Assembly (NCBI GenBank): GCA_029776995.1
Contig: JAKOTZ010000109.1
Location: forward strand, 1-32,759
Direction: 5' to 3'
DNA from: Candidatus Hydrogenedentota bacterium
GTDB taxonomy: Bacteria > Hydrogenedentota > Hydrogenedentia > Hydrogenedentales > CAITNO01
DNA length: 32,759 nucleotides
Shown: positions 14,719 through 14,990 of the stretch, one piece after another
Layout: every line of letters begins with the position of its first letter
Position numbering within the stretch: the first letter of the stretch is position 1
Made by a program: the position numbers and the translations under genes
The notes under the pieces: model-generated
The model's database searches: none
What the model was told of the DNA's origin: nothing
Seen by the model: the letters and a program-made list of their open reading frames with translations, nothing else

Positions 14719-14772
14719 ATCCTTACTCCTGATGGGTTGAGGGTTGACCGCAGGCGCAACCTGCCTTCATTT

Positions 14773-14788
14773 CGGAATTTAGATTCCG
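14773..14788. promoter_or_regulatory. Candidate NrpR-type operator, GGAA-N6-TTCC, in gdhA leader
   Basis: CGGAAT-TTAG-ATTCCG is a perfect 6+6 inverted repeat whose core is GGAA-N6-TTCC, the published operator pattern of archaeal NrpR. It begins about 10 bp downstream of the gdhA -10 box, where a bound repressor would block initiation or early elongation. It could instead act as a small RNA hairpin in the leader. Confidence 0.6.
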
Positions 14789-14798
14789 TAATGTGTCT

Positions 14799-14829
14799 AT
14801 TATAAAACCTGTAAAACGGTTATTTTCAA
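14799..14829 (-). promoter_or_regulatory. gdhA promoter
   Basis: On the minus strand: TTGAAA (14824-14829), 19-bp spacer, then a perfect TATAAT (14799-14804). The expected start lies near 14792, giving a leader of about 74 nt. The long spacer suggests a promoter open to regulation. Confidence 0.6.
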
Positions 14830-14854
14830 GGGTAAAACCAGAATATTTTATCAT

Positions 14855-14880
14855 TTTAACCGGCAAAAATGCCGTTTAAA
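14855..14880. promoter_or_regulatory. Palindrome CGGCA-N4-TGCCG, distal operator candidate
   Basis: A 26-bp palindrome with one mismatched pair: TTTAA, a mismatch, CGGCA-AAAA-TGCCG, a mismatch, TTAAA. The core (14861-14874) matches that at 14946-14959. Its centre is 85 bp from the second copy, close to eight helical turns, and it lies upstream of the gdhA -35. Confidence 0.55.
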
Positions 14881-14935
14881 GCAGCGCATATTTTGCCATT
14901 AAGCCCAAAAAATTTCCGATATCATGCTTTTTTTC

Positions 14936-14966
14936 TTGATTGATCCGGCAATATTGCCGGTATACT
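14936..14966 (+). promoter_or_regulatory. Promoter of the NrpR-type gene, with a palindromic operator in its spacer
   Basis: TATACT (14961-14966) is the -10; TTGATT (14936-14941, 19-bp spacer) is the best -35. The perfect 16-bp palindrome CCGGCAATATTGCCGG (14945-14960) fills the spacer completely. A protein bound there would exclude RNA polymerase, so autoregulation is likely. Confidence 0.6.
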
Positions 14967-14990
14967 GATGGAAAATGCCTGGAGCCGGAA

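Follow-up and report, generated by a model that had tools for sequence, protein, structure and literature searches.

A candidate two-type NrpR operator between gdhA and a divergent nrpR-like gene in Candidatus Hydrogenedentota

The gdhA-nrpR locus and its regulator

This study analyzed a stretch of DNA of 32,759 nucleotides, hereafter the window, from a Candidatus Hydrogenedentota MAG with a 3.4-Mb genome that is 97% complete. A gene encoding NADP-specific glutamate dehydrogenase (GDH), gdhA, and a gene encoding an nrpR-like regulator are divergently oriented, and the ATG of gdhA at 14718 and the GTG of nrpR at 14991 delimit an intergenic region at 14719-14990 (Table 1). The GTG start of nrpR is backed by an alignment of 19 sequences, and the gene calls bear out the back-to-back arrangement that an earlier note, made from the sequence of this DNA, had described. 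The source genome has a gene for a large glutamate synthase as well, which rules out GDH as its sole route to glutamate. Directly downstream of gdhA, a large open reading frame (10621-13332, minus strand) resembles PEP synthase/pyruvate phosphate dikinase by eye, and the gene after gdhA at another locus (L162) looks similar to it.

Table 1. Genes and predicted regulatory features at the gdhA-nrpR locus (window coordinates)
Feature	Position	Strand	Remarks
gdhA, NADP-specific glutamate dehydrogenase	13378..14718	-	446 aa; NF006929, 777.7 bits (cut-off 536); PF00208/PF02812
gdhA-proximal predicted operator, 16-mer CGG-N10-CCG	14773..14788	.	CGGAATTTAGATTCCG; CGG-N10-CCG in 16/16 linked intergenic regions
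Predicted gdhA -10, TATAAT	14799..14804	-	Assigned by position and because many relatives have TTGAC(T/A)-N17/18-TACACT there
Predicted gdhA -35, TTGAAA	14824-14829	-	Long 19-nt spacer to the -10
Predicted N8 site, 14-mer CGGCA-N4-TGCCG	14861..14874	.	CGGCAAAAATGCCG; core of CCGGCAAAAATGCCGT (14860-14875)
Predicted third site (N8)	14946..14959	.	CGGCAATATTGCCG; core of the perfect 16-bp palindrome CCGGCAATATTGCCGG (14945-14960)
Predicted nrpR -10, TATACT	14961-14966	+	Predicted from sequence; directly downstream of the third site
nrpR-like regulator, HTH_12 + one NRD	14991..16001	+	336 aa; PF01995, E=8.8e-77; PF08461, E=4.9e-7

The regulator, which the earlier note had read as a DUF128/winged-helix protein of the NrpR family, proved to be an NrpR homologue in both profile matches and fold. 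The match to the NRD profile (PF01995) covers 237 of the 238 profile positions, and the N-terminal winged helix (HTH_12, PF08461) scores above the cut-off. The archaeal protein MJ0159 of Methanocaldococcus jannaschii was matched at the profile level (E=1e-41) and was also the top PDB match (3nek) of the AlphaFold model of the regulator (pLDDT 87), with a TM score of 0.92 (of target) and 27% identity over 242 columns; the two proteins have the same NRD fold. The whole assembly gives a single PF01995 match, that of the regulator gene, and has no second NRD gene. One relative of the regulator shares 87% identity with it.

Archaeal NrpR is made to let go of its operator by 2-oxoglutarate (PMC11957540). 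By analogy with this archaeal family, we infer that 2-oxoglutarate would also be the releasing ligand of the bacterial NrpR. The same circuit may instead respond to a different metabolite, such as glutamate or glutamine; identity between the NRD and MJ0159 is just 27%, and glutamate synthase and glutamine-dependent NAD synthetase genes are also neighbors of bacterial nrpR. We consider such a ligand unlikely, given that the regulator and MJ0159 have NRD core motifs in common (e.g., YDGSSLDP) and that 2-oxoglutarate is the ligand reported for the archaeal protein.

Palindromic sites in Hydrogenedentota

The 16-mer at 14773-14788 contains an exact match to GGAA-N6-TTCC (14774-14787), the operator consensus quoted for Methanococcus maripaludis NrpR (PMC2723118). 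Both the palindrome and the match had been claimed in the earlier note and are confirmed in the sequence, but the identity with the consensus is by itself weak evidence, because the window holds four copies of GGAA-N6-TTCC against an expectation of 0.9, with all but this one inside long open frames, and because CGGAA-N4..6-TTCCG is in excess genome-wide (92 copies versus 12 for the reversed control). Six copies of the latter, inspected in the source genome and a congener (G000 and G001), all lay in open frames. In Hydrogenedentota, the site at gdhA takes the form CGG-N10-CCG, most often CGGATG..TTCCG; the match of CGGAATTTAGATTCCG to the Methanococcus consensus is in part an accident of lineage.

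The earlier note had also placed the palindrome just past the predicted gdhA start, and it indeed sits directly downstream of the predicted gdhA -10. A generic promoter scan of the window, run with spacers of 16-18 nt, did not report this TATAAT/TTGAAA promoter. In 24 gdhA upstream regions anchored on the 16-mer, the 16-mer begins 4-11 nt, mostly 8-11 nt and, in the 16 linked gdhA-nrpR regions, mostly 8-10 nt, after a -10-like hexamer, and the typical promoter is of the sigma-70 type, TTGAC(T/A)-N17/18-TACACT-N9. The automatic -10 call fell 4 nt before the 16-mer in three loci, and the -10 of one locus (L154) is poor.

Two palindromes of a second type, hereafter N8 sites, were identified in the same intergenic region; neither was listed in the earlier note. 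The centre of the first (14861-14874) is 87 bp from that of the gdhA-proximal site. The patterns CGGAA-N4..6-TTCCG and CGGCA-N4..6-TGCCG were too common genome-wide for regulon mapping, and the AT-centred form CGGCA-W4-TGCCG was used. This form occurs twice in the window (0.01 expected) and five times in the 3.4-Mb genome, where three copies lie inside genes and the only intergenic copies are the two N8 sites of this locus. Between them, at 14884-14900, is AGCGCATATTTTGCCAT, which resembles a degenerate site.

To assess conservation, we examined the intergenic regions of 16 linked gdhA-nrpR pairs, drawn from many genera. The results revealed that CGG-N8-CCG and CGG-N10-CCG were each present in all 16 regions, whereas every other spacing from N0 to N16 was found in 1-5 of them. 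Shuffled sequences gave a mean of 2.2 regions of 16 for CGG-N10-CCG, and CGGMA-N4-TKCCG was detected in 15 regions against a shuffle mean of 0.05 of 16. The earlier note had staked its reading on a palindrome conserved between the two genes in relatives, and this expectation was borne out by CGG-N10-CCG. Among relatives, 85-175 bp separate the upstream N8 site from the site near +1; inspection of these distances by eye revealed no helical phasing, and looping between the two site types is therefore at most a possibility.

We then compared the occurrence of the 16-mer with that of nrpR, which was present in 27 of the 68 genomes of the phylum. The 16-mer was found at 22 of 23 sampled gdhA genes in nrpR-bearing genomes, whereas only 2 of 11 carried it in genomes lacking nrpR (Fisher p=1e-5, phylogeny ignored; 12:1 versus 0:8 when counted by genus). 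The two nrpR-lacking genomes with both sites are MAGs of 82% and 88% completeness, in whose genera nrpR is otherwise present. Among nrpR-lacking genomes of at least 83% completeness, eight had no such site pair at gdhA; one of the eight (G052) carries a CGG-N10-CCG of different make-up 178 nt upstream of gdhA and lacks an N8 site. A ninth genome, with 63% completeness, had neither site at gdhA. In the nrpR-lacking genomes, several gdhA genes share only 55-68% identity with the query and may not be strict orthologues. One nrpR-bearing genome (G056), with an nrpR of 48% identity, had no sites at gdhA.

In five genomes in which nrpR is not linked to gdhA, both site types are still present at gdhA, 149-162 bp apart, and neither was found upstream of the unlinked nrpR. 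The N8 site thus appears to serve gdhA, beyond any autoregulation of nrpR, since it is kept at gdhA where nrpR has moved. This retention, together with the location of the N8 site upstream of the apparent nrpR -35 in many relatives, would also suit an NrpR that occupies the same sites as an activator or dual regulator of gdhA, nrpR, or both, acting for instance from the upstream N8 site. Nevertheless, the gdhA site follows the -10, where repressors typically bind; the near-consensus gdhA -35 and -10 of most relatives leave little need for activation; and characterized archaeal NrpR is a repressor (PMC2723118). We regard activation as quite unlikely and repression as the preferred reading.

The location of the gdhA palindrome within the predicted gdhA leader and the genome-wide abundance of CGGAA-N4..6-TTCCG might alternatively indicate that the element works in RNA, as a hairpin or a terminator-like structure of the 5' untranslated region. 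This explanation appears very unlikely: the N10 spacing is fixed, whereas the inner bases are variable and the arms often imperfect; the related N8 sites fall outside the predicted gdhA transcript, upstream of its start; the sites track the presence of nrpR; and the genome-wide copies sampled lie in coding frames. A role as DNA operators is more consistent with these features.

The scope of a possible regulon was examined at the glnA and amtB loci of 12 nrpR-bearing Hydrogenedentota, where scattered matches but no recurring operator-like site were found; in the source assembly, glnA was not found and amtB is cut by the contig end. Because glnA and amtB have no recurring operator, the NrpR circuit in this lineage looks local to gdhA and nrpR rather than like the nif/glnA regulon of archaea. 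The extension of that archaeal circuit to bacterial GDH, as put forward in the earlier note, agrees with the sites at gdhA and does not seem to extend to a regulon of the nif/glnA type. In one genus (G036 and apparently its congener G031), an N8 site, CGGCAAAATTGCCG, precedes a purF-like glutamine-amidotransferase gene (L199:1504-1517 and L203:1548-1561), which is a possible second NrpR target.

Bacterial nrpR loci in other phyla

A scan of GTDB species genomes identified 440 loci encoding relatives of the regulator, and the best 80 of the 440 were read. A gene for GDH, a short PF01645 glutamate-synthase-type gene, or a gene for glutamine-dependent NAD synthetase flanks nrpR in 63 of these best 80 loci, in which the partner genes are mostly divergent. 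The partners were called by tblastn similarity, and the PF01645 and NAD synthetase families were confirmed with Pfam on one representative each. In the cultured bacterium Dethiosulfatarculus sandiegensis (L073), nrpR lies next to the NAD synthetase gene. By site and linkage, the predicted targets (gdhA through its sites, and the partners at these 63 loci) are nitrogen-assimilation genes.

Among 41 divergent intergenic regions outside Hydrogenedentota, CGGCA-N4-TGCCG was found in 20 and CGGCA-N6-TGCCG in 8, with approximately 0.03 expected for each; other spacings of the same half-sites were found 0-2 times in the same regions. These counts indicate that the same two spacings recur in Desulfobacterota, Planctomycetota, and other phyla, in which the partner genes differ. 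The cross-phylum bacterial motif predicted from these regions is CGGCA-N4/N6-TGCCG. About half of the nrpR/glutamate-synthase intergenic regions in other phyla contained neither motif.

This recurrence bears on whether the sites could belong to a different regulator that merely co-occurs with nrpR. The sites are predictions from DNA sequence and the regulators of Hydrogenedentota are uncharacterized, which leaves room for such a protein. Across phyla, however, the same half-site in the same two spacings lies beside nrpR while the partner genes differ, so that nrpR is the shared element; we consider a different regulator highly improbable and NrpR the better candidate.

Two further observations were made at these loci. 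In a Deltaproteobacterium (L072), two nrpR paralogues lie back to back (1382-2437, minus strand; 3001-3972, plus strand); the region separating them holds two N8 sites, and gdhA is found a short way past the pair. At five loci (L061, L062, L080, L085, and L094), the genes upstream of nrpR encode, according to Pfam, FlpD-like or NuoF-like electron-transfer subunits and not nitrogen proteins; these might form part of electron-supply complexes for glutamate synthase.

Proposed control of gdhA and comparison with known systems

We consider it probable that the intergenic region is an NrpR operator with two types of site, through which gdhA, and probably nrpR, would be repressed until 2-oxoglutarate relieves the repression. 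The 336-aa NrpR would act as a dimer, binding CGG-N10-CCG immediately downstream of the gdhA -10 and also occupying the upstream CGGCA-N4-TGCCG sites, one of which lies within the predicted nrpR promoter. At low 2-oxoglutarate, as under nitrogen-replete conditions, bound NrpR would keep transcription shut off; a rise in 2-oxoglutarate, which GDH aminates as its co-substrate, would release NrpR and turn gdhA on. The N8 sites may help repression, possibly through cooperation or looping. GDH usually serves as an enzyme of ammonium sufficiency (PMC11957540), and repression of gdhA at high nitrogen would therefore run against textbook logic. For this reason, and because a large glutamate synthase is present, the model is least certain about the sign of control.

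A wider proposal is that a single CGGCA half-site, used in two fixed spacings, N4 and N6, marks a widespread bacterial NrpR branch that controls glutamate formation through gdhA in some lineages and a short PF01645 glutamate synthase gene in others. Hydrogenedentota would then have a dedicated gdhA switch responsive to 2-oxoglutarate, with NrpR acting at a +1 site as well as a distal one. We advance this proposal tentatively and rate its prospects slightly below even.

Methanogens use NrpR as their main nitrogen repressor, and work on repressors of this kind has until now been confined to archaea. That NrpR also occurs in "certain Bacteria" was noted earlier (PMC2723118). No target or operator of a bacterial NrpR was found in the literature searched, which did not include subscription journals or regulon databases. 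The recurring paired sites beside gdhA point to an unrecognized bacterial control of ammonium assimilation, and the conserved sites provide a concrete regulon candidate for hundreds of bacterial homologues (440 loci), many of them in uncultured phyla.

The closest likeness is to NrpR of M. maripaludis, with which the bacterial system shares the HTH_12/NRD family, the exact GGAA-N6-TTCC match, and an association with nitrogen-assimilation genes. The M. maripaludis protein carries two NRDs, whereas the bacterial one has a single NRD and would act at sigma-70-type promoters; in addition, a second bacterial site type is present, with two fewer bases between its half-sites. The archaeal targets comprise nif, glnK-amtB, glnA, molybdate transport, and an alanine symporter (PMC2723118), whereas the bacterial sites lie at gdhA and nrpR and did not recur at the amtB and glnA loci checked in relatives.

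The layout of the bacterial regulator, an HTH domain followed by a single NRD, is similar to that of NrpRI of Methanosarcina mazei, which acts with a partner, NrpRII, at the operator GGTA-N6-TACC; in contrast, the bacterial genome has no second NRD gene. Among bacterial regulators of gdhA or glutamate synthase, Nac and GltC likewise link glutamate formation to nitrogen or 2-oxoglutarate. However, both are LysR-type proteins with a fold unrelated to that of NrpR. The present findings suggest that, outside the archaea too, glutamate formation may be under a repressor that senses 2-oxoglutarate directly.
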